From Actinomycetota bacterium (GTDB lineage Bacteria > Actinomycetota > Thermoleophilia > Gaiellales > Gaiellaceae): DNA of 46,729 nucleotides. Each line of letters opens with the position of its first letter. Within the stretch, counting starts at the first letter, position 1. Made by a program: the position numbers and the translations under genes. The DNA is taken from positions 1 through 46,729 of the forward strand of contig JAIBJO010000038.1 of assembly GCA_020029615.1 (NCBI GenBank), read 5' to 3'. Below the pieces are notes generated by a model. The model searched no databases. It was given only the letters and a program-made list of their open reading frames with translations, and had not been told where the DNA came from. Shown here piece by piece: positions 7,060 to 27,697 of the stretch.

Positions 7060-8172
7060 GGCAACCAGGACCGACTCGAAATACTCGCCCGAGCGCCGCC
7101 CCGTGCGCCGGTTCACGTGGCGCTCGAGCCGATCGAGGAGTCGCAGCCCGCTCCGCTCGAGGATCTCCGGATACAGCGCCCGCCGGTCGTTGACGACGAT
7201 CGCCAGCGGCGCACCGGGCTCCAGCGTCGCCGCACACCGCCGAAGCACGTCCGAGATGCCGACGACGTATGCGGCAAGGGCGTCCCGACTCGCCCCAAGT
7301 GCCGCTGCGCCGAGCTCACGCTCGCGACGATCATCGAGACCGAGCAGCTCGTAGGCGTACCGGTGCTGCTCGTGATAGTCGATGAGACCCGGATAGGGCG
7401 GGGACGTGATCACCGCGTCGAATCCTTCGCCGATCACGATCTCGCGCGCATCACCGTGCACGACCACCGCTTCGTGCGCACCGTCCCGCAACCGCTCGAA
7501 CTCCCTCAATCGCTCGAGCGTGTCGAGGAGATAGCGGGCGAGGAACTTGTTCGCCTCCTGGACCGGCCTGCACGTCCTGCGGTGCTTGTGACACCAGTAC
7601 TGGTCGCGCTGCGGGGCCTTCGGGAACTCGAGGTCGAAATGCGTCGTCAGTCGCGCCGACCGAGCCGCGCGGGCGAGCACGACCCGGAGCACGTCCGCGT
7701 GCTCGTAGTCCTCGATCAACGCACGGAAGTGCAGGAGTTGAGCAGCGGCGCGAGGGGCGTACCACTCGCCGACGTACCCGCGCGGACGCACCGGAGTCTC
7801 TCCGAGACGCGCGAGCACGTCGTGGACCTCACTCTCCAGACCAGGGATCTCGACCCGGCCGATCTTCACTCGCATGAGCAGGCAGTTGAACGATGCGACG
7901 TCCACCCCGACCGCGTCGTAGCCCGATTCGAGCGACTGGACGAGCGTGGTGCCGGACCCCGCGAAGGGGTCGAGCACTCGTCCGCCCGGGCGGACGTACC
8001 GGCCGAGCAAGGCCTCGACGAGCTGCGGCACGAACTTGCCGAGGTACGGGTGCAGCCGGTGGACGTGCTTGGTCCGTTCCTTCTCCGGCAGCTCGGCTTC
8101 CGACCACGAGAGATGGAGATCGCCCGAGAGCTCCTCGTACAGCGCCTGCTGCGTCACTGCCATTGTCTGCAC
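7045..8172 (-). CDS. Orphan DNA (N4-cytosine/N6-adenine) methyltransferase
   Basis: The 375-residue protein has the SAM motif I VLDPFAGSGTT (residues about 66-76) and the catalytic motif IV ITSPPYPG (about 255-262). The roughly 180 residues between them contain a Cys-His-rich patch, CHKHRRTC (194-201). TSPPY is typical of N4-cytosine and some N6-adenine enzymes. The start at GTG 8172 is preferred over ATG 8163 because AGGGGT lies 8 nt before it. No restriction endonuclease, specificity subunit or phage gene is adjacent, so it is an orphan. It follows yraN by 23 nt and may share its transcript. Target sequence unknown; a tRNA or rRNA substrate is a less likely alternative. Confidence 0.8.
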   Translation of the reverse strand: MQTMAVTQQALYEELSGDLHLSWSEAELPEKERTKHVHRLHPYLGKFVPQLVEALLGRYVRPGGRVLDPFAGSGTTLVQSLESGYDAVGVDVASFNCLLMRVKIGRVEIPGLESEVHDVLARLGETPVRPRGYVGEWYAPRAAAQLLHFRALIEDYEHADVLRVVLARAARSARLTTHFDLEFPKAPQRDQYWCHKHRRTCRPVQEANKFLARYLLDTLERLREFERLRDGAHEAVVVHGDAREIVIGEGFDAVITSPPYPGLIDYHEQHRYAYELLGLDDRRERELGAAALGASRDALAAYVVGISDVLRRCAATLEPGAPLAIVVNDRRALYPEILERSGLRLLDRLERHVNRRTGRRSGEYFESVLVAVRER

Positions 8173-8195
8173 GTTCGACGACCCCTGATGCGGTC

Positions 8196-8516
8196 CTACA
8201 TCAGCGGGACCCGTTCGACCCTGCTCCCGCTGACACCCGCGGCCTCGAGTGAGAGCTCGAGCCCGGCATGCTCGGGGTGCGCCGCCAGCCAGGACTGCGC
8301 GCCCGTCCGGACGCGACGCACCTTCTCGCGGTCGATCATCTCCAGCGGATTCCCGAACGCGGCGCCGCTCTTCTCCTTCACCTCGACGACGAGCAGCCGG
8401 CGCCCGCGGCGAAGCACGAGATCCAGCTCGTAGCGGCCCGCGCGCGCGTTCGCCTCGAGCAGGCGATAGCCGCGGAGCCGGTAGTGACGGAGGGCGCGCC
8501 GCTCGCCGCGATTCAC
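8196..8516 (-). CDS. YraN/UPF0102 family nuclease-fold protein
   Basis: The 106-residue protein has the family's restriction-endonuclease-like core: GYRLLEANARAGRYELDLV followed by LLVVEVKEKSG, giving the E...D...ExK metal-binding pattern. UPF0102 proteins are usually encoded next to rnhB and are thought to act on branched DNA, but the role is not established. The GTG start overlaps the rnhB stop by 4 bp (GTGA), so translation is coupled. Length and neighbourhood are normal for the family. Confidence 0.9.
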   Translation of the reverse strand: MNRGERRALRHYRLRGYRLLEANARAGRYELDLVLRRGRRLLVVEVKEKSGAAFGNPLEMIDREKVRRVRTGAQSWLAAHPEHAGLELSLEAAGVSGSRVERVPLM

Positions 8517-17136: not shown

Positions 17137-18084
17137 TCAATCGGAGATCAGCGCACGGGCGTAGTCGTGCGGGTCGAACGGGCGTAAATCGTCCACACCT
17201 TCGCCGACGCCGACCAACTTCACCGGCAACCCCAGCTCGACCGAGATGGCGATGGCGACACCGCCTCGTGCGCTGCCGTCGAGCTTGGTCAGCGCGACGC
17301 CCGTCACGCCGACCGCGTCGCCGAACAGGCGCGCCTGCTGTAGCCCGTTCTGTCCCGTCGTGGCGTCAACGACCAGGAGCGTCTCGTGCGGAGCCCCGTC
17401 GATCCTGTTCGCGATCACGCGACGGACTTTCTCTAGCTCCGTCATGAGGTTCGCCTGGGTGTGCAAGCGGCCGGCGGTGTCGATGATCGCGACGTCGTGA
17501 CCACGTGCCCGCGCCGCCTCGACCGCGTCGAAGGCGACCGCCGCGGGGTCGGCGCCTCTGGCCGCTCCGACGAAATCCGCACCCGCACGCCCGGCCCAGA
17601 TCTCGAGCTGCTCCTCTGCGGCGGCGCGAAACGTGTCCGCTGCTCCGACGAGCACGGACCGCTCGTGCTCGCGCAGCTTCTGTGCCAGCTTGCCGATCGT
17701 CGTCGTCTTCCCGGTGCCGTTGACGCCGACGACGAGGATCACGCTTGGTCCCCCTGCGAGGTCGATCGTAGGAGGAGGGCCGAAGATCGACTCGACCTCG
17801 TCGACGAGGGCGTCCTCGAGACCGCCCGCGACCCCGCGCAGCTCGAGGCGTCGCACGATCTCGGCAGTCGCGGGCACGCCGACGTCGCTGCGAATGAGCG
17901 CCTCCTCCAACCGCTCCCACGCCCCGTCGTCGCTGGCGTCGAACGCAGCCGAGGCGAGCTCGGCCGTGAGCGCCCGCCGGCTCTTTGCCAGCGACTCCCG
18001 GACTCGGCCGAAGACGCCCGTCCGCTCGGGCTCGTCGGCCGCCGTGAGCTCGTCGCCGAGGAGCTCCGACCAGGTGTAGCTCAC
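17137..18084 (-). CDS. ftsY: Signal recognition particle receptor FtsY (likely internal start)
   Basis: Starting at GTG 18084 this is a normal 315-residue FtsY NG domain: GVFGRVRESLAKSRRAL, P-loop VGVNGTGKTTTIGKLA, DTFRAAAEEQL, DTAGRLHTQANL and TKLDGSARGGVAIAI, ending with the conserved GVGEGVDDLRPFD. It partners Ffh at the membrane. The frame is continuous with SMC upstream, so the separate start is inferred from family length and from the GTGA that would couple it to a +1-frame stop. The GTG lies inside the right arm of a perfect palindrome. Confidence 0.85.
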   Translation of the reverse strand: MSYTWSELLGDELTAADEPERTGVFGRVRESLAKSRRALTAELASAAFDASDDGAWERLEEALIRSDVGVPATAEIVRRLELRGVAGGLEDALVDEVESIFGPPPTIDLAGGPSVILVVGVNGTGKTTTIGKLAQKLREHERSVLVGAADTFRAAAEEQLEIWAGRAGADFVGAARGADPAAVAFDAVEAARARGHDVAIIDTAGRLHTQANLMTELEKVRRVIANRIDGAPHETLLVVDATTGQNGLQQARLFGDAVGVTGVALTKLDGSARGGVAIAISVELGLPVKLVGVGEGVDDLRPFDPHDYARALISD

Positions 18085-20778
18085 GGGGCAACCACGGTTG
18101 CCCCGTGAGCGTGGAGGGGTGTGGGGGACCGGGAGGTTCCCGAGAGCCTGCTCGTGCTGAGGAAGACGCCGAGAGACCACCTGCGACACGCCGTCCGGGC
18201 CCATCGTCACGCCGTAGAGGATATCCGCGGCCTCCATCGTCCTCTTCTGGTGGGTGACCACGACGAACTGCGCGCGATCCGCATACCGGCGGAGGAGCTC
18301 CACGAAGCGCGCGATATTGGTGTCGTCGAGGGCGGCCTCGACCTCGTCGAGGAGATAGAAGGCACACGGCCTCGCCAGGAAGAGCGCGAACAGGAACGAG
18401 ATCGCGCCGAGCGCCTTCTCGCCCCCCGAGAGCAGCGAGAGGCGCATGATCCGCTTCCCGGCAGGTCGCAGCTCGACCTCGATACCGGGCTCGCCCGCCT
18501 CGTCGTCGGGCTCCACGAGCCGGAGGCGTCCCTCGCCCCCGGGAAACAGGGTCGAGGCGACCTCCTCGAAGTGCTCGGCGACCGCTGCGAACGTCTCGGC
18601 GAACCGGCGCTCGACCGTGTCGGCGAGCTCGGTCCGGAGCCGCTCGAGCTCCACAAGGCTCTGCTCCAGGTCCTCCCGTTGCGCGCGGAGATCGTCCAGG
18701 CGCTCCTTCTCGGCCTCGTACTCCTCTCGCGCGAGGGGATTGACTTGGCCCAGAGTCGCTCGGCGAACCTCCAGCCGCTCGACGCGGGCGGCGAGCTCGT
18801 CCCGGTCGTCGCCATCGGCCGGCTGAACCTCGCCGGCCGCCTCGAGGCGCCGGGAAGCGTCGCTCGTATCTGCATCGATTCGGGCAATCTCGACCTCTGC
18901 GCTCGTGAGGCGCTCACTGGCTTCCTCGAGCTCCTGGCGAAGCCCTACCTCAGCTGCCCCGAGCGAGCGCAGCTCGTCACCGAGCTCGCCAGTGCGAAGC
19001 GAACCGGCATCGACGCGCGCTCGCAGCGGGGCGTCGAGCCGTTCGGCGGCTACGCGCGACGCGGCCAAGCTCCCGACAAGTGCTTCCGCTGACGCGACGA
19101 GCCGCGCGAGGATCCCGGCGTCGACCGACGATCGCAGCTTCGGCGCCGAGCGCCCGTACGCGAGCTCGGCAGCCCGCGCGGCGGCACTCATCCTCTCCGC
19201 GGCGATCGTCGCGGACGAGGCACGCTCTTCGAGGCCTGCCGCCTCCTTCGCGAGGACTCGCAGACGCGCCTTGAGCTCCAGGAGAACCGCTTCGGCCGTC
19301 TCTCCGGCGAACCAGAGCTCGCCGCGAACCGGGTCGAACCCGAAGCCCTCGGACGTCACCGCCGGGGTCGAGACGTCGAGGAGATCCTCGAGCGCCACGA
19401 CGGGATACTCGCGGACGAGCTCCTGCGGCGCAGCGCCCGTGAGGACGGTGAGGCTGCCCAGACCCGCCGTCCGAGCATGCTCGAGAAGCGCCAGCCCCGC
19501 CACCGGATCGTCCGCGAGAACGGCTGCGGCTCGTGATCTCAGAGCAGCGGCGACCGCACGCTCCATACCGGGCTCCACGTCGAGAGAGCCGAACGCGAGG
19601 CTCGCGCCTTGCTCGGCGAGCGCACGTGCGGCAGGCGGAAGCCCTTCCTGCTCGGCAAGCGCCTGCTCGAGCGCCCGCAATCGCTCCGTTGCGATCGCTG
19701 CGCGCTCGACGAGGTCGGCCCGCTCGCGCTCGGCAATGCGCGCGGCCTCCGCGGACCGCGCCGCCTCGAGCTCGAGACGCACGGCTTCGGTCGGCGTCTC
19801 GTCGGGGCCCGATGCGGCCGGTACTTCGCTCGCGAAGCGCTCGAGGAGGGCACCGGCCGACTCGCCGCGAAGCCCGAGTCGCTCGATGCCGCCCTGCAGC
19901 CGATAGAGGGACGCCACCGCCGACTCGCGTCGGCCGGCGGCGTCGGAGAGCTCGTCCTCTGCACGCGCTCGATCCGTGAGCAGCCCTTCGAGGCGGGACT
20001 GAGAGCCTCGCCGGGCGAGAGCCGCCGCGTGTCGCCGCCCTTCGGCCTCGGCACGCCGCGAACTCGAGTCGGCGAGATCGAGCTCGGCCACTCGGGCCCT
20101 CAGCGACGCGACCTCACGGGCGAGCTTCTCGGCTCGCTCGGCCGCGGTCGCCTGGAGCGCCAAGGGGCGGAGCCGCTTCCGCACCTCCTCCTCGACGTCG
20201 CGCGCGCGCTCGACCTGCAAGGCGACGCGAGCGAGCTTCAGCTCGGCTCGATGACGCCGGCGCTTGAACTTGCCGAGCCCGGCCGCTTCCTCCACGAACG
20301 CGCGGCGATCCTCCGGCTTCGAGGCGAGCACCTGCTCGACCTTGCCCTGGCCGACGATCGAGTGCATGGCCGAGCCGAGGCCGACGTCCGCGAGGAGCTC
20401 CACGAGATCCGTGCGCCGAACCGACGCACGGTTGACGAGGTACTGCCCCTCCGCTCCCCGCGCGAGCCGCCGTGCGATCGAGACCTCGCTGAAGTCGAGC
20501 TCAGGCCAGGCGTCGTCCTCGTTGTCGAAGACGAGCTCTACCTCACAGTGCTCCGCCGCCTTGCGGTCGCCGCCGCCCGCGAAGAGGACATCGTCGGGCT
20601 TCTCGGCGCGAAGCTCGGAGGGCGTGAGGGAGCCTGCGGCCCAGACGACCGCGTCGGCGATGTTCGACTTGCCCGAGCCGTTCGGGCCGACGATGACGGA
20701 CACTCCCGGCTCGAGCGCGATCTCGATCGGTTCGGGAAACGACTTGAAGCCGCGGATGCGAAGCGTGCGCAGGTGCAC
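17137..20778 (-). CDS. smc: SMC chromosome partition protein in one frame with FtsY
   Basis: The 1213-residue frame has no stop. Residues 1-876 are SMC: Walker A GPNGSGKSN (31-39), coiled coil from about 170, a hinge at about 385-495, a second coiled coil, signature LSGGEKALGAISFL (783-796) and Walker B FYLLDEVEAALDD. Each arm is about 200-230 residues, shorter than in typical SMCs of about 1180 residues. A linker of about 22 residues (NLPVPHTPPRSRG) leads into a complete FtsY. SMC compacts and segregates DNA; FtsY is the membrane SRP receptor. Either a true fusion is made, or FtsY starts at GTG 18084. In the +1 frame a TGA overlaps that GTG, so a one-base change would restore two genes. Start GTG 20778. 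Confidence 0.85.
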   Translation of the reverse strand: MHLRTLRIRGFKSFPEPIEIALEPGVSVIVGPNGSGKSNIADAVVWAAGSLTPSELRAEKPDDVLFAGGGDRKAAEHCEVELVFDNEDDAWPELDFSEVSIARRLARGAEGQYLVNRASVRRTDLVELLADVGLGSAMHSIVGQGKVEQVLASKPEDRRAFVEEAAGLGKFKRRRHRAELKLARVALQVERARDVEEEVRKRLRPLALQATAAERAEKLAREVASLRARVAELDLADSSSRRAEAEGRRHAAALARRGSQSRLEGLLTDRARAEDELSDAAGRRESAVASLYRLQGGIERLGLRGESAGALLERFASEVPAASGPDETPTEAVRLELEAARSAEAARIAERERADLVERAAIATERLRALEQALAEQEGLPPAARALAEQGASLAFGSLDVEPGMERAVAAALRSRAAAVLADDPVAGLALLEHARTAGLGSLTVLTGAAPQELVREYPVVALEDLLDVSTPAVTSEGFGFDPVRGELWFAGETAEAVLLELKARLRVLAKEAAGLEERASSATIAAERMSAAARAAELAYGRSAPKLRSSVDAGILARLVASAEALVGSLAASRVAAERLDAPLRARVDAGSLRTGELGDELRSLGAAEVGLRQELEEASERLTSAEVEIARIDADTSDASRRLEAAGEVQPADGDDRDELAARVERLEVRRATLGQVNPLAREEYEAEKERLDDLRAQREDLEQSLVELERLRTELADTVERRFAETFAAVAEHFEEVASTLFPGGEGRLRLVEPDDEAGEPGIEVELRPAGKRIMRLSLLSGGEKALGAISFLFALFLARPCAFYLLDEVEAALDDTNIARFVELLRRYADRAQFVVVTHQKRTMEAADILYGVTMGPDGVSQVVSRRLPQHEQALGNLPVPHTPPRSRGNRGCPVSYTWSELLGDELTAADEPERTGVFGRVRESLAKSRRALTAELASAAFDASDDGAWERLEEALIRSDVGVPATAEIVRRLELRGVAGGLEDALVDEVESIFGPPPTIDLAGGPSVILVVGVNGTGKTTTIGKLAQKLREHERSVLVGAADTFRAAAEEQLEIWAGRAGADFVGAARGADPAAVAFDAVEAARARGHDVAIIDTAGRLHTQANLMTELEKVRRVIANRIDGAPHETLLVVDATTGQNGLQQARLFGDAVGVTGVALTKLDGSARGGVAIAISVELGLPVKLVGVGEGVDDLRPFDPHDYARALISD
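18079..18110. repeat. Perfect 32-bp palindrome at the SMC-FtsY junction
   Basis: Arms of 15 bp (18079-18093 and 18096-18110, GCTCACGGGGCAACC and its complement) are separated by 2 bp. The FtsY GTG is inside it. It is terminator-like in strength but lies within an open frame; no U-run follows. Confidence 0.7.
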
Positions 20779-21824: not shown

Positions 21825-22826
21825 TCACCTCTCTGCCGTCGGGGTCGTGGAGCGCGCGGATGCTAACACGCCAGACGCCAGGCGCTCCTGCAGTCGCTCG
21901 ACGACGCGATGCTCGACGCCGCGTGCGGCGAGCTCGATGGCGTTCGCGATGGCGACACGTGAGCTGGAGCCGTGCGCGATGACGACGAGACCGTTGAGGC
22001 CGAGCAGGTAGCCGCCGCCGTAGGTCTCCGGGTCGAGGCGCTCGCGAAGCCGGCGGGCCGCAGGGCGCATTAAGGCTCCGCCGACCTTCCCGCGCAGGGA
22101 TGACGCGAGCTCGGCTCTGAGCGCCTCGAGCAGGCTTCGGACGGTTCCCTCGAGCGTCTTCAAGGCGACGTTTCCCGTGAAGCCGTCCGTGACGACGACG
22201 TCGGCGCCGCCCTCCAGGAGTGCACGTCCTTCCATGTTCCCGCCGAACCGGAGATCGGCCGCACGGAGCAGCTCGTGGGCCTCGACCGTGAGCTGGTTGC
22301 CCTTCTCGTCCTCTTCTCCTATGGACATCAGCCGCACTTCCGGACGCTCGATGCCGAGGATCTCCTCCGCAAAGACGGATCCCATGTGAGCGAACTGGAC
22401 GAGATGCTCCGGCCGAGCGTCCGCATTCGCACCGGCGTCGATAAGCACGCTCGGGCCACGTTTGGTCGGGATCACGGCGGCGATGCCGGGCCGGTGCACG
22501 CCGGGAAGCCTGCGGATATGAAGGAGTGACGCTGCGAGCATCGCTCCCGTGTTTCCGGCCGACACGACGACGTCGGCCTCACCGTCGGCCACTGCTCGAA
22601 CCGCGCGCACGAGAGACGAGTCCGCCTTCGTCTTCACGGACTCGACGGGGTGGTCGTCCATGGCTATCGCTTCGGTGGTCGCGACGAGCGCGAGCCCGTG
22701 TGCATCCAGGTCTGGCGGCCCGTACAGCGTCAGCAGGATCTCGGGAGATGCAGCCCGTGCGGCGCCCGCGACGATCTCCTCGGGCGCGCGGTCGCCACCG
22801 AGAGCGTCAACGGCGACCCGGATCAC
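21825..22826 (-). CDS. plsX: Phosphate acyltransferase PlsX
   Basis: The 333-residue protein begins IRVAVDALGGDRAPEEIV, the PlsX N-terminal hallmark, and has VVSAGNTGAMLAASL, GIERPEVRLMSIGEEDEKG and VVTDGFTGNVALKTLEG. PlsX converts acyl-ACP to acyl-phosphate for PlsY and can also exchange acyl groups with the FakA/FakB system encoded at 32014-34852. The start GTG 22826 is 11 nt after the rpmF stop, so rpmF-plsX are co-transcribed. Confidence 0.95.
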   Translation of the reverse strand: MIRVAVDALGGDRAPEEIVAGAARAASPEILLTLYGPPDLDAHGLALVATTEAIAMDDHPVESVKTKADSSLVRAVRAVADGEADVVVSAGNTGAMLAASLLHIRRLPGVHRPGIAAVIPTKRGPSVLIDAGANADARPEHLVQFAHMGSVFAEEILGIERPEVRLMSIGEEDEKGNQLTVEAHELLRAADLRFGGNMEGRALLEGGADVVVTDGFTGNVALKTLEGTVRSLLEALRAELASSLRGKVGGALMRPAARRLRERLDPETYGGGYLLGLNGLVVIAHGSSSRVAIANAIELAARGVEHRVVERLQERLASGVLASARSTTPTAER

Positions 22827-22837
22827 GGTCGGATCGT

Positions 22838-23026
22838 CTACGGCGCGTCGAGGCGAAGCGGCTCGACGTCGCGGCCCTTGTAGGTCTTGCAGTTGGGGCA
22901 CACGCGATGCGCTCGCTTCGGCTGCCCGCACGTCGGGCAGACCTGGACGTGCGGGACGGAGATCCCGTGCTGAGCGCGGCGCTTGTCGCGCCTCGACTTC
23001 GACGTCTTTCGCTTCGGGACGGCCAT
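22838..23026 (-). CDS. rpmF: 50S ribosomal protein L32
   Basis: The 62-residue protein begins MAVPKRKTSKSRRDKRRAQ and carries the zinc ribbon CPTCG...CPNC of the zinc-binding L32 type. The ATG at 23026 has TATACT 12 nt upstream and no clear ribosome binding site. In most bacteria yceD directly precedes rpmF; here yceD lies 3 kb away at 26179. Confidence 0.96.
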   Translation of the reverse strand: MAVPKRKTSKSRRDKRRAQHGISVPHVQVCPTCGQPKRAHRVCPNCKTYKGRDVEPLRLDAP

Positions 23027-23038
23027 GAGCGGCTGCGG

Positions 23039-23044
23039 AGTATA
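23039..23044 (-). promoter_or_regulatory. -10 box TATACT for rpmF
   Basis: TATACT on the minus strand ends 12 nt before the rpmF ATG, implying a leader of only a few bases. It may have been recruited when the insertion separated rpmF from yceD. Confidence 0.5.
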
Positions 23045-23221
23045 GCCAGAGCCGTCAGGGCTCTCCTCGCGTCCGACGAGCCGGAGCTCTGGAGCCCTCG
23101 ATACGTGCAGTTCTTCGTGAAGGCCTACCGCAGGGGCGACCCGGGCCTCGGCGGCATCTACCCGAACCGCCTCGTCCAGGTCCCGACCGGGAGCTCGTGG
23201 CAACCGGACGTGCTGGGGTGA
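23045..23221 (+). pseudogene. Remnant of a secreted Ig-like protein C-terminus
   Basis: The plus-strand frame ending at TGA 23219-23221 encodes VQFFVKAYRRGDPGLGG and NRLVQVP. This matches the C-terminus of the complete gene at 25042 (VQFFIKTYRAGDMSGK, YRLVQVS). Upstream the frame runs antisense through rpmF, so no full gene is present. The fragment keeps its own terminator hairpin. It is read as a decayed paralogue lying in the same orientation as the intact one. Confidence 0.6.
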
Positions 23222-23244
23222 CCTGAATTGCAGGTCGCCCCAGC
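23212..23244. terminator. Bidirectional hairpin between the remnant and the ABC-F gene
   Basis: A 14-bp stem with a single G-T pair (23212-23225 and 23231-23244, core GGGGTGACCTG) and a 5-nt loop lies at the stop of the remnant and 4 bp before the end of the opposing ABC-F gene. Confidence 0.6.
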
Positions 23245-23247
23245 GTG

Positions 23248-24831
23248 TCAGGGGAGCGCGATCTCTCTGGTCGGCTCGACCCGCTCGAGGAAGCGTCGAT
23301 CGTGCGAGACCACGACGAGGGCCCCCGCATACTCGACGAGCGCGCTTTCGAGCTGCTCGACGGCCTCGAGATCGAGATGGTTGGTCGGCTCGTCGAGAAT
23401 CAGCACGTTCACGCCGCGCGACTGGAGCTCGGCGAGATGGGCACGCGTGCGCTCCCCGGGTGAGAGCGTCGCGCAGGAACGGCCGATGTGTTCGGCGCCG
23501 AGCCCGAACTTCGCGAGGAGCGTCCTAGCATCGACTGTCACGAGCCCGGTTCGTGACGTGAACGCGTCGATGAGACGAGCCTCCGCCGCATACGCGTCAC
23601 GCTCCTGCTCGACCGCCCCGACGACGGTTCGCCGACCGACGCGCCGTACTCCGGCAGCAAGAGGCACGCTGCCGAGCAGCATTCCCAGCACCGTCGACTT
23701 GCCCGCGCCGTTCGGCCCTGCGATCGACAGGCGCTCTCCCGGCGCCAGCTCGACGTCGAGAGGCCCGAGTCGGAAGCTGCCGCGCTGCGCGACCGCGCCG
23801 GACAGCTCGAGCACGAGCTCCGAGGGCCGTATCGAAGCGCGAAGGGTCAGCTTCAAAGCCCACGGCTCGAACGGCTTCGGCGGCAGCTCGTTGCGCTCGA
23901 AGAGCCGCTCGGCCTGCCTCACCTTCGTCTCGAGCGCGTGCGTCGCCCTGCGATCCTGGCCTCCGGTCTTGTCGCCGAGCGCAGCTCCCTTCGAGCGCGC
24001 TTCCGAGCGCCGGGTGCTCAGGAGCTCCGTCAAACGCTTGCGCCGCACCCGCGCCTGCTCGAATGCGGAGAGCGCCGCTGCACGCTCGGCGTCACGCGCA
24101 GCCTCGTAGTCGCTCCAGCCTCCCGCCCACTCCCGAACCGTGCGGCTGTGGCACTCGATCGCGGCAACGCGCCGGACGGTGCGATCGAGAAGCGCACGGT
24201 CGTGCGTTACGAGGACGAGCGCTCCGCGGTACGAGCCGAGGAACCTCTCGAGCCGCTCGAGGCCGTCGAAGTCCAGGTCGTTGGTCGGCTCGTCGAGAAG
24301 GAGAACGTCGAAGCGCGAGAGCAGGATCGCCGCGAGCGCGACCCTCGCGGCTTCACCGCCCGAGAGGCCCGCCAGCTCTCGATCCACATCCACGTCCAGG
24401 CCCAGCTCCGAGCACCTGGTACGTGCTCGCGCTCCGAAGTCCCCGCCGCCGAGCGCGAGGAAGCGCTCGAGCGCGCCGGAGTAGCGATCCGAGGCGCTGG
24501 CGCTGCGGGCGAGCTCGGCCGCCGACGTCTCCAGCTCGCGCTCTGCGGCGAGGACGCCGGCTCGCCGAGCGAGCGTCGCGAGCACGGACTCCCCTGGCAC
24601 CGCCGATCGCTCTTGCTCGAGATAGCCGACGGTCAGCAGCTCGGGCGCCCTGGTGATCGTTCCTTCGTCCGGCTGCTCGAGTCCCGCGACGATCCGTAGC
24701 AGCGTCGTCTTGCCCACGCCGTTCGGCCCGACCAGGCCGATGCGAGCCTTCGGGCCGATGGTGAGCGTGACTTGATCGAGAACGACATGGGCGCCGTAGT
24801 GCTTGCCGACGCCGGCGAGCTGAACTCGCAT
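23248..24831 (-). CDS. ABC-F family ATPase
   Basis: The 527-residue protein has two tandem ABC domains and no membrane segment. Domain 1 has GPNGVGKTT, LSGGEAARVALA and LLLDEPTNDLDF. Domain 2 has GPNGAGKST, LSPGERTRAHLA and LILDEPTNHLDL. The charged coiled linker between them (residues about 235-320) is the ribosome-contacting PtIM region. ABC-F proteins act on the ribosome in translation or in antibiotic protection; which applies here cannot be read. ATG 24831 is preceded by GGAGG with a 7-nt spacer. It lies in the block that splits yceD from rpmF. Confidence 0.9.
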   Translation of the reverse strand: MRVQLAGVGKHYGAHVVLDQVTLTIGPKARIGLVGPNGVGKTTLLRIVAGLEQPDEGTITRAPELLTVGYLEQERSAVPGESVLATLARRAGVLAAERELETSAAELARSASASDRYSGALERFLALGGGDFGARARTRCSELGLDVDVDRELAGLSGGEAARVALAAILLSRFDVLLLDEPTNDLDFDGLERLERFLGSYRGALVLVTHDRALLDRTVRRVAAIECHSRTVREWAGGWSDYEAARDAERAAALSAFEQARVRRKRLTELLSTRRSEARSKGAALGDKTGGQDRRATHALETKVRQAERLFERNELPPKPFEPWALKLTLRASIRPSELVLELSGAVAQRGSFRLGPLDVELAPGERLSIAGPNGAGKSTVLGMLLGSVPLAAGVRRVGRRTVVGAVEQERDAYAAEARLIDAFTSRTGLVTVDARTLLAKFGLGAEHIGRSCATLSPGERTRAHLAELQSRGVNVLILDEPTNHLDLEAVEQLESALVEYAGALVVVSHDRRFLERVEPTREIALP

Positions 24832-24950
24832 CGACGGACCTCCGAGACCGCGGTTGGGCGCACACGCGAAGACGTGCGCAGCACGGGAATGGGGTCACTC
24901 AGTCCGTCATCAGCCGGCGCCGGAGCGCCACCGGGATCGTAGACGACCCG

Positions 24951-24988
24951 GTAAGGGCTGTGTAAGGCGGTGTAAGAGATCCGCAAGA
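24951..24988 (+). promoter_or_regulatory. Four helically phased GTAAGG-like direct repeats
   Basis: GTAAGG at 24951, GTAAGG at 24962, GTAAGA at 24972 and GCAAGA at 24983 are spaced 11, 10 and 11 bp. They lie about 55-95 bp before the secreted Ig-like gene. This is the geometry of OmpR/PhoB-type operator arrays. The surrounding 24832-25041 interval holds no gene. Confidence 0.5.
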
Positions 24989-25041
24989 GTTCGCAGCCAA
25001 CGCCCTTTCGAGCAGTCATAAACAGTGACGACCAAGGAGGG

Positions 25042-26136
25042 ATGATGTCCTTCAGAAGACGTTCCGACCGATGGGCCATCGGAATCGTGGCCCTCATGAC
25101 GGCCCTCGCGATGTGCACGCTCGTCCTGCCCACCAGCGACGGCGTGGCCGCACCGGCGACGGCGCCGACGCCGACGGCCGAGCCGAGGATCTCAGGCACC
25201 GCGCGTGTCGGCGATGTCCTGAGGACGACCGACGGCACCTGGACTGGCACGAAGCCGATCACTTTCCAGTACCGGTGGTACCGGTGCGAGGGCGCAGGGC
25301 AGGGGGACGCCTCGGACTGCCGGCGTATCTCGAATGCTCCGAACAACACGTACACCCTGCGGGACGCTGACGCGGGGTTCCGCATCCGCTCGCAGGTCGT
25401 CGCGAGGAACGCGGAGGGATCGGGAACGTCGACGTCCAATCCGAGCGACGTCGTCCAATCCGCGCGGCCGACGAACACGAGCCCGCCGACGGTGTCGGGC
25501 ACGACGGTCGTCGGCAGCCGCCTCACCGCCAATCGCGGCACGTGGATCGGCAACGCGCCGATCACCTACTCGTTCAAGTGGCTGCGGTGCAACTCGGCCG
25601 GGGAGGACTGCGCCGAGATCGCACGTGCGGTGGACAACACGTACGTGGTCGCCAAGGACGACGTGAACCGCACCATGCGCGTCCGCGTCACGGCGCGGAA
25701 CGACGCAGGTTCGCAGAGCGCCGTGTCGAGTCAGACGAGCGTGGTCCAGTCGGATGTGCCGCCGACCGGATCGCTGCCAGTCGGGAGCCTCCAAGGTGGT
25801 GGTGACCAGCTCCTCATCTCGCAGATCGTCTTCTCCCCAAACCCGGTGACGAGCCGAACCGCTCCCATCACGGCTCGTGTCAAGATCACGGCCAGAGAAG
25901 GACGCCCGGTCAGCGGCGCCCAGGTCTTCATGCGAGCGACGCCGCGGGTCGTCCAGGGTCAGACAGCGACGACCCAGCCGGACGGATGGGTGACGCTGAC
26001 GCTGATCCCGAACGGGAACTTCCCCACACCGCGAAACGGCATGAACGTCCAGTTCTTCATCAAGACGTACCGCGCCGGCGACATGAGCGGGAAGCTCGAC
26101 GGCTACCGACTCGTGCAGGTGAGCCTCGCGGGCTGA
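25042..26136 (+). CDS. Secreted protein with two Ig-like repeats
   Basis: The 364-residue protein has a basic N-terminus and hydrophobic segment (WAIGIVALMTALAMCTLVLP), a signal peptide or anchor. Two homologous repeats of about 95 residues follow: ISGTARVGDVLRTTDGTW...YRWYRC and VSGTTVVGSRLTANRGTW...FKWLRC. Both have the cysteine pair and WxG pattern of actinobacterial Ig-like domains. The last about 105 residues form a beta-rich domain ending NVQFFIKTYRAGD...YRLVQV. AAGGAGG precedes two ATGs, and 25045 has the better spacing. It is probably cell-surface; function unknown. Phased repeats upstream suggest regulation. Confidence 0.8.
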   Translation: MMSFRRRSDRWAIGIVALMTALAMCTLVLPTSDGVAAPATAPTPTAEPRISGTARVGDVLRTTDGTWTGTKPITFQYRWYRCEGAGQGDASDCRRISNAPNNTYTLRDADAGFRIRSQVVARNAEGSGTSTSNPSDVVQSARPTNTSPPTVSGTTVVGSRLTANRGTWIGNAPITYSFKWLRCNSAGEDCAEIARAVDNTYVVAKDDVNRTMRVRVTARNDAGSQSAVSSQTSVVQSDVPPTGSLPVGSLQGGGDQLLISQIVFSPNPVTSRTAPITARVKITAREGRPVSGAQVFMRATPRVVQGQTATTQPDGWVTLTLIPNGNFPTPRNGMNVQFFIKTYRAGDMSGKLDGYRLVQVSLAG

Positions 26137-26178: not shown

Positions 26179-26685
26179 TCACACGCCGCGGAACTGCTCC
26201 AGCGCCGCCCAGCGAGGATCCGGCTCGCGCTCCGTGTGCTCGTGCGGCTCGGCATTCAAGTCCTTGCCGCACACGGGGCAGAGGCCAGCGCAGTCCGGGC
26301 GGCAGAGAATCTGCTCGGGAAGCTCGAGCGCGATCGCGTCCCGCGCCCAGGCCCCGACGTCGAGGTGGTCGTCGGTGACGTAGTCGGAGCGAAGCTCGTC
26401 AGCTTTCGGAGCATCCGGATCGTTGAACTCCCTCGCAGAGACGTGGCACTCGATCTCGGCGAACGCGAGACAGCGCATGCACGGGCCTGTCACGCGCACG
26501 TCGAGCTGCAGGTCGAAGATCGTTGCGCCGGACGCACGGGAGATCTCTACCTCGACGGGAAGGTGCGACGGCGCCGACTCGTAGCGCTGGCCGCCCAGTA
26601 CGAACGGCTCGAGCTCGACGTCGAGTCGTTCTTCGCGGACGTCGCCCGGGCGGATGTGCAGGCGCCGCAGATCGATCGTCGTCAT
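26179..26685 (-). CDS. yceD: YceD/DUF177 family protein
   Basis: The 168-residue protein has the DUF177 features: GPCMRCLAFAEIECHV and, near the C-terminus, CRPDCAGLCPVCGKDLN, two cysteine pairs that may hold a metal. YceD homologues are normally encoded directly before rpmF and are linked to 23S rRNA accumulation. ATG 26685 is chosen because TACGCT stands exactly 6 nt upstream. Here rpmF lies 3 kb downstream, separated by the Ig-like gene, the ABC-F gene and a remnant. Confidence 0.9.
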   Translation of the reverse strand: MTTIDLRRLHIRPGDVREERLDVELEPFVLGGQRYESAPSHLPVEVEISRASGATIFDLQLDVRVTGPCMRCLAFAEIECHVSAREFNDPDAPKADELRSDYVTDDHLDVGAWARDAIALELPEQILCRPDCAGLCPVCGKDLNAEPHEHTEREPDPRWAALEQFRGV

Positions 26686-26691
26686 CTCCGG

Positions 26692-26697
26692 AGCGTA
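26692..26697 (-). promoter_or_regulatory. -10 box TACGCT for yceD
   Basis: Minus-strand TACGCT ends 6 nt before the yceD ATG, with no ribosome binding site. Confidence 0.55.
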
Positions 26698-26746
26698 GCG
26701 CCGTCCGGTGGGTCGGATAGTGCGATTAGCCACGCTGCTTGCCTGG

Positions 26747-26752
26747 TACTCT
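26747..26752 (+). promoter_or_regulatory. -10 box TACTCT for the LysR gene
   Basis: TACTCT ends 6 nt before ATG 26759. It is divergent from the yceD promoter within a 73-bp intergenic region, the usual place for LysR autoregulation. Confidence 0.55.
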
Positions 26753-26758
26753 TTGATC

Positions 26759-27697
26759 ATGGAATCTGATCGCTGGCTCGGACTCGACCTCCGTCACCTC
26801 ATCGCCCTGAAGACGATCGCCGACGAGGGATCGTTCGGCAGGGCTGCAGAGCGGCTCGGCTACACGCAGTCGGCGATCTCGCAGCAGATTGCGACGCTCG
26901 AGCGCATCGTCGGGCTACGGCTGATCGACAGGCCAGGCGGACCTCGCGCAATCTCGCTGACCGAGGCAGGCCGCATCCTGCTGCGGCACGCCGACGCGAT
27001 CCAGGCACGCATCCTCGCAGCGAAGGCCGACATGAGCGCCCTCGAAGCCGGCGACGCGGGCCGCCTCCGCGTCGGCACCTTCCAGAGCGTCGGCGCGAAG
27101 GTCATCCCCCAGCTCCTTCGCAGCTTCTCCGAGAGCCACCCGCAGGTGGAGGTCGTGCTCCGTGAGTCTCAGGACGAGGACGAGCTTCTCGAGATGATCG
27201 AGCGAGGCGAGCTCGACATCACCTTCTGGACGCTTCCCGTTCTCGGCAGTCCGTTTGACACGGTCGAGCTCCTTCGCGACCCGTACGTGCTCGTCGTCCC
27301 GGCCGGGTCTCCGCTGACCGAGCTGAAGCGGACGCCGACTCTGAAGGAGATCGTGCTTCACCCCCTCGTCGGGTTCAACCAGTGCCGGGCGATGACGCAC
27401 GTCGACCTCCAGCTCACGGCGGCCGGGCGAACGCCGAACTACGTGTTTCGCTCGGACAACAACGGCACTGTCCAGGGGCTCGTCGGCGCCGGTGTCGGCA
27501 TCAGCATCTCTCCGCGGCTCACCGTCGAGGAGGGCGACCCGAGCATCGCGGTCGTCGACCTCCATGGACGGCTCGAGCCGCGCGTCATCGGCCTCGTCTG
27601 GCACAAGGATCGACACCGCAGCGCAGCGTCGGAGGCGTTCGTCGAGTCGGCGATAGCAGTGTGCAGCGAGCTCTCGGCCGAGGCCGCAGCGGCATAG
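26759..27697 (+). CDS. LysR-family transcriptional regulator
   Basis: The 312-residue protein has the LysR helix-turn-helix at residues 8-65 (GSFGRAAERLGYTQSAISQQIATLE) and the periplasmic-binding-like effector domain (GRLRVGTFQSVGAKVIP, GELDITFW, VGAGVGISISPR). It is divergent from yceD. No metabolic operon is adjacent on its strand, so the target and inducer are unknown. The ATG at 26759 fits both the leaderless -10 box and the family start. Confidence 0.92.
   Translation: MESDRWLGLDLRHLIALKTIADEGSFGRAAERLGYTQSAISQQIATLERIVGLRLIDRPGGPRAISLTEAGRILLRHADAIQARILAAKADMSALEAGDAGRLRVGTFQSVGAKVIPQLLRSFSESHPQVEVVLRESQDEDELLEMIERGELDITFWTLPVLGSPFDTVELLRDPYVLVVPAGSPLTELKRTPTLKEIVLHPLVGFNQCRAMTHVDLQLTAAGRTPNYVFRSDNNGTVQGLVGAGVGISISPRLTVEEGDPSIAVVDLHGRLEPRVIGLVWHKDRHRSAASEAFVESAIAVCSELSAEAAAA

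Follow-up and report, generated by a model that had tools for sequence, protein, structure and literature searches.

How did the housekeeping ribosome/lipid cluster yceD-rpmF-plsX come to harbor Ig-like and ABC-F genes together with a gene fragment, and in which order did they arrive? We addressed this question in a stretch of 46,729 nucleotides from an Actinomycetota bacterium (hereafter the window), in which the gene calls and Pfam matches agree with the first-pass annotation that yceD and rpmF are parted by an Ig-like gene (plus strand), an ABC-F gene (minus strand) and a fragment (plus strand), as listed in Table 1. The window keeps the order and strand of yceD, rpmF, plsX and acpP known for this cluster, and differs from it by the ABC-F interruption and, as in several congeners, by the Ig-like gene. 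Although the separation of yceD from rpmF is evident in the window, it is not rare. We collected 54 related genomes with yceD, 49 of which carry yceD and rpmF on one contig; the gap between the two genes is shorter than 350 bp in 34 of the 49 and at least 350 bp in the other 15.

Table 1. Features of the interrupted cluster, in window coordinates.
Feature	Position	Strand	Evidence and remarks
plsX	21825..22868	-	adjoins rpmF as usual; Pfam PF02504, 2.3e-94
rpmF, ribosomal protein L32	22838..23026	-	Pfam PF01783, 1.6e-24
insert, ~204 bp, window-only	23047..23250		ABC-F/rpmF junctions of six genomes set side by side
Ig-like 3'-end remnant (VQFFVKAYRRGDPGLGGI...RLVQV)	23103..23182	+	blastn, shuffle test, identity comparison, model strands
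hairpin, 19-bp stem, 5-nt loop	23207..23249	+	fold -39.6 kcal/mol, z -6.7
ABC-F gene, ribosomal-protection-like	23248..24831	-	two Pfam ABC_tran stretches; NF000355 E 8e-104, below cut-off
intact Ig-like gene	25042..26136	+	PF23197 36.8 bits; AlphaFold2; Foldseek
yceD (DUF177)	26179..26760	-	PF02620, 3.3e-25; 88.9 bits, above the gathering cut-off of 33.2

Elsewhere in the window, smc and ftsY lie in one open frame (17137-20778, minus strand), with SMC_N at approximately residues 3-865 and the SRP54 GTPase at 1011-1211. A stop codon separates the two genes in the related genome G006, indicating that the fusion in the window probably just lost the smc stop; ftsY probably starts at an internal GTG within this frame.

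Significant homology bears out the reading of the fragment as the fossil end of another Ig-like gene, one that ran on the plus strand like the intact copy. In blastn, it matched the window genome's own second full-length copy on contig C150 with an E value of 4e-14 and the neighboring intact gene with 2e-6, and its core scored 46, while none of 200 dinucleotide shuffles exceeded 21. The homologous stretch, which is the sole significant part of the insert, is limited to 80 bp or 26 codons (23103-23182) rather than the whole of 23090-23221 that had been assigned to it. The neighbor had been taken as the partner of the remnant; it is indeed homologous and directly oriented, but it is not the closest copy. 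At the DNA level, the remnant is 78-80% identical to the Ig-like copies in G001 and G007 and 76% identical over 103 bp to the C150 copy, whereas its identity to the neighbor is 70%, the lowest among the complete copies, with a longest exact match of 9 nt. The neighbor's own 3' end is the odd one (GDMSGKLDGYRLVQVSLAG), and the remnant retains the family form GDPGLGGI. These values also bear on a chimeric assembly, in which the remnant would be an artefact of repeat joining in metagenome assembly. The genome is a draft of 183 contigs, and the contigs of G007 and G009 break within Ig-like 3' ends; however, the remnant is identical to no copy found, the best identity of 80% argues against a copied repeat, and the order is as expected on either side, making such an artefact very improbable.

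Outside the core, the bases on both sides gave best scores no better than those of shuffles (p ~0.5), and neither the 56 bp to its left nor the ~25 bp before the hairpin had a significant match. A 19/24 match of the insert flank to an inter-domain linker was dropped because the flank scores are at shuffle level. A mobile element would be expected to recur, but the window genome contains no other copies of the insert or its hairpin, and the search for orphan Ig-like 3' ends elsewhere in the genus returned weak matches and one at a contig end.

The intact Ig-like protein was modeled by AlphaFold2 with a signal-like N-terminal helix followed by three beta-sandwich domains (mean pLDDT 84); the pTM of 0.46 leaves the arrangement of these domains unsure. 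Foldseek matched the model to generic Ig/FN3 chains. The codons of the remnant correspond to model strands 335-343 and 353-362, the last two of the third domain, and judging from this model the piece should neither fold nor work alone and should lack a protein function. With 26 of ~365 codons kept and the 5' part missing, the remnant resembles a truncated pseudogene of a paralogous family in being 5'-truncated, lacking a start codon and being homologous to intact paralogs, and it differs only by its site in a housekeeping cluster and by the terminator-like hairpin.

Gene order in the relatives bears on how the block of ABC-F and Ig-like genes arose. The order yceD-Ig-ABC-F-rpmF was found in G002, G003 and G010, the last with two tandem Ig-like genes. 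G001 shares the Ig-like gene between yceD and ABC-F with these three, followed by other sequence, and its rpmF was not found; a long open frame encoding a secreted-looking protein lies 3' of ABC-F in place of rpmF (L065, 6287-7910). In G007 and G008 the order is yceD-ABC-F-rpmF without an Ig-like gene, and no Ig-like relics were found between yceD and ABC-F in these two genomes. The order is yceD-Ig-rpmF in G004, yceD lies directly before rpmF (52 bp) in G006, and in G009 rpmF and an Ig-like gene stand head-to-head at the end of a contig. Outside the genus, ABC-F is collinear between yceD and rpmF in G026, G031 and G034 and lies beside yceD in G030, where the locus is cut by a contig end. ABC-F is inverted in G022 and G036, with rpmF of G036 found only at a contig end; the inverted genes next to yceD (L206 of G022, 883-2421; L080 of G036, 7132-8463) reflect either a local inversion or a separate insertion. 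Two further genomes carry unrelated genes between yceD and rpmF, an aldo/keto-reductase-like frame by eye in G015 (L081, 5270-6352) and other frames in G020 (L079, 2799-4822).

The first-pass annotation had proposed that the block was brought in by duplication or recombination between paralogous surface-protein genes, leaving a fossil; the two Ig-like ends would then be its footprints. The homology and direct orientation of the two ends would agree with this, but G002, G003 and G010 carry the same block without a second homologous end, essentially the outcome named in advance as speaking against the proposal, and in G007, G008 and other genera the yceD-rpmF interval holds ABC-F with no Ig-like gene at all. 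The pattern is thus not that of a direct-repeat insertion footprint, as the block is present with no repeat beside rpmF, and the low identity and short exact match of the two ends given above also count against it. A block that predates the second end, and that relatives possess in its absence, cannot have been brought in by the pair of similar ends, and we regard this origin as extremely unlikely.

The ABC-F gene appears to be the oldest of the three additions. It lies between yceD and rpmF in most congeners and in several other genera of the family. In the ABC-F tree, the window groups with G002 (support 99), then with G007 (98), followed by the genus (99) and G030 next (99), which is consistent with vertical inheritance in the genus; a tree of neighboring genes also placed the window with G007 and G002, with several weak branches. 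A scan of genome contigs with ABC-F recovered distant ABC-F genes only. NF000355, the best NCBIfam model, describes ribosomal-protection-like ABC-F proteins, with which the window protein shares a single chain bearing two ABC ATPase domains; it differs by a score of 348.2 bits, under the curated cut-off of 380, and a resistance role is putative at most.

We then compared the ABC-F/rpmF junctions of the window, G002, G003, G007, G008 and G010. From the ABC-F stop to the rpmF start, the distance is 221 bp in the window and 16-19 bp in the five relatives. The window junction is long because ~204 bp separate the final codons of ABC-F (..CTCCC) from the conserved -10-like box of rpmF (GCTATACT), both of which are kept. 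In G002, G003, G007 and G010, the ABC-F stop codon TAG falls inside this box (CTATAG), which was located at 23040-23046 in the window and in L066, L067, L070 and L072 of the relatives. The insert carries a new ABC-F stop codon, the 26 Ig-like codons and the hairpin. Insert and remnant were seen in the window only among the relatives compared, the window species being represented by one draft genome. Since the window groups with G002 and then G007, both with the tight junction, the most parsimonious account is a single gain in the window lineage.

The hairpin now sits between convergent reading frames, overlaps the stop codons of both the remnant and ABC-F, lacks a T-run and occurs once in the window genome. 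An Rfam search of the window gave no match. Most other Ig-like copies have a stable structure 3' of the stop codon, with weak z-scores for C150, G001 and G003, which suggests that the hairpin is probably the old terminator of the Ig-like gene.

The junctions also weigh on another origin of the remnant, namely an Ig-like gene already present between rpmF and ABC-F in the ancestor of the genus, which would survive beside rpmF in G009, in shorter form in G004, and would have been lost elsewhere save for the relic in the window. The G009 gene, head-to-head with rpmF, has the orientation of the remnant and groups with the C150 copy (91/95). However, G004 is without ABC-F here and G009 yielded no close ABC-F, so that their Ig-like gene may be the yceD-side copy after loss of ABC-F. 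Repeated losses restoring the 16-19 bp junction would also be needed in G002, G007, G008, G003 and G010. We therefore consider an ancestral gene at this site improbable.

A history of three layers, with the remnant as a late, lineage-specific fossil, is likely to account for the locus. ABC-F would have joined the cluster early and then been inherited vertically in the genus. The gene for a secreted Ig-like protein would later have entered the interval between yceD and ABC-F, in convergent orientation to yceD. The 3' end of another Ig-like member, probably with its hairpin, would have landed between ABC-F and rpmF solely in the window lineage. The fragment probably arrived as a second Ig-like copy placed by duplication, whose 5' part was then deleted; tandem copies in G010 and G007 indicate that duplication is normal in this family. 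Against this route, the insert flanks match nothing significant, so that a complete gene once present here is unproven, and none of the relatives was found to have an intact second Ig-like gene between rpmF and ABC-F. The fragment may instead have been captured in one step, an alternative indistinguishable from duplication and deletion on the present data.

Parsimony shows ABC-F to be older than the Ig-like gene and the Ig-like gene older than the remnant, correcting the order of events to an old ABC-F, a later Ig-like gene and a youngest fossil. The remnant itself is real but ordinary. The recurrence of ABC-F in the yceD-rpmF interval is a modest lead by itself. In this bacterial family, a dedicated ABC-F might conceivably work regularly alongside YceD and L32 from one gene cluster, in which its stop codon (TAG) overlaps the rpmF -10-like box (CTATAG), and act in ribosome assembly and not in drug protection, a role that we hold to be doubtful. 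A literature search on yceD-rpmF with ABC-F gave nothing relevant among the titles listed. The locus provides an example of a housekeeping ribosome/lipid cluster that gains and loses passenger genes.
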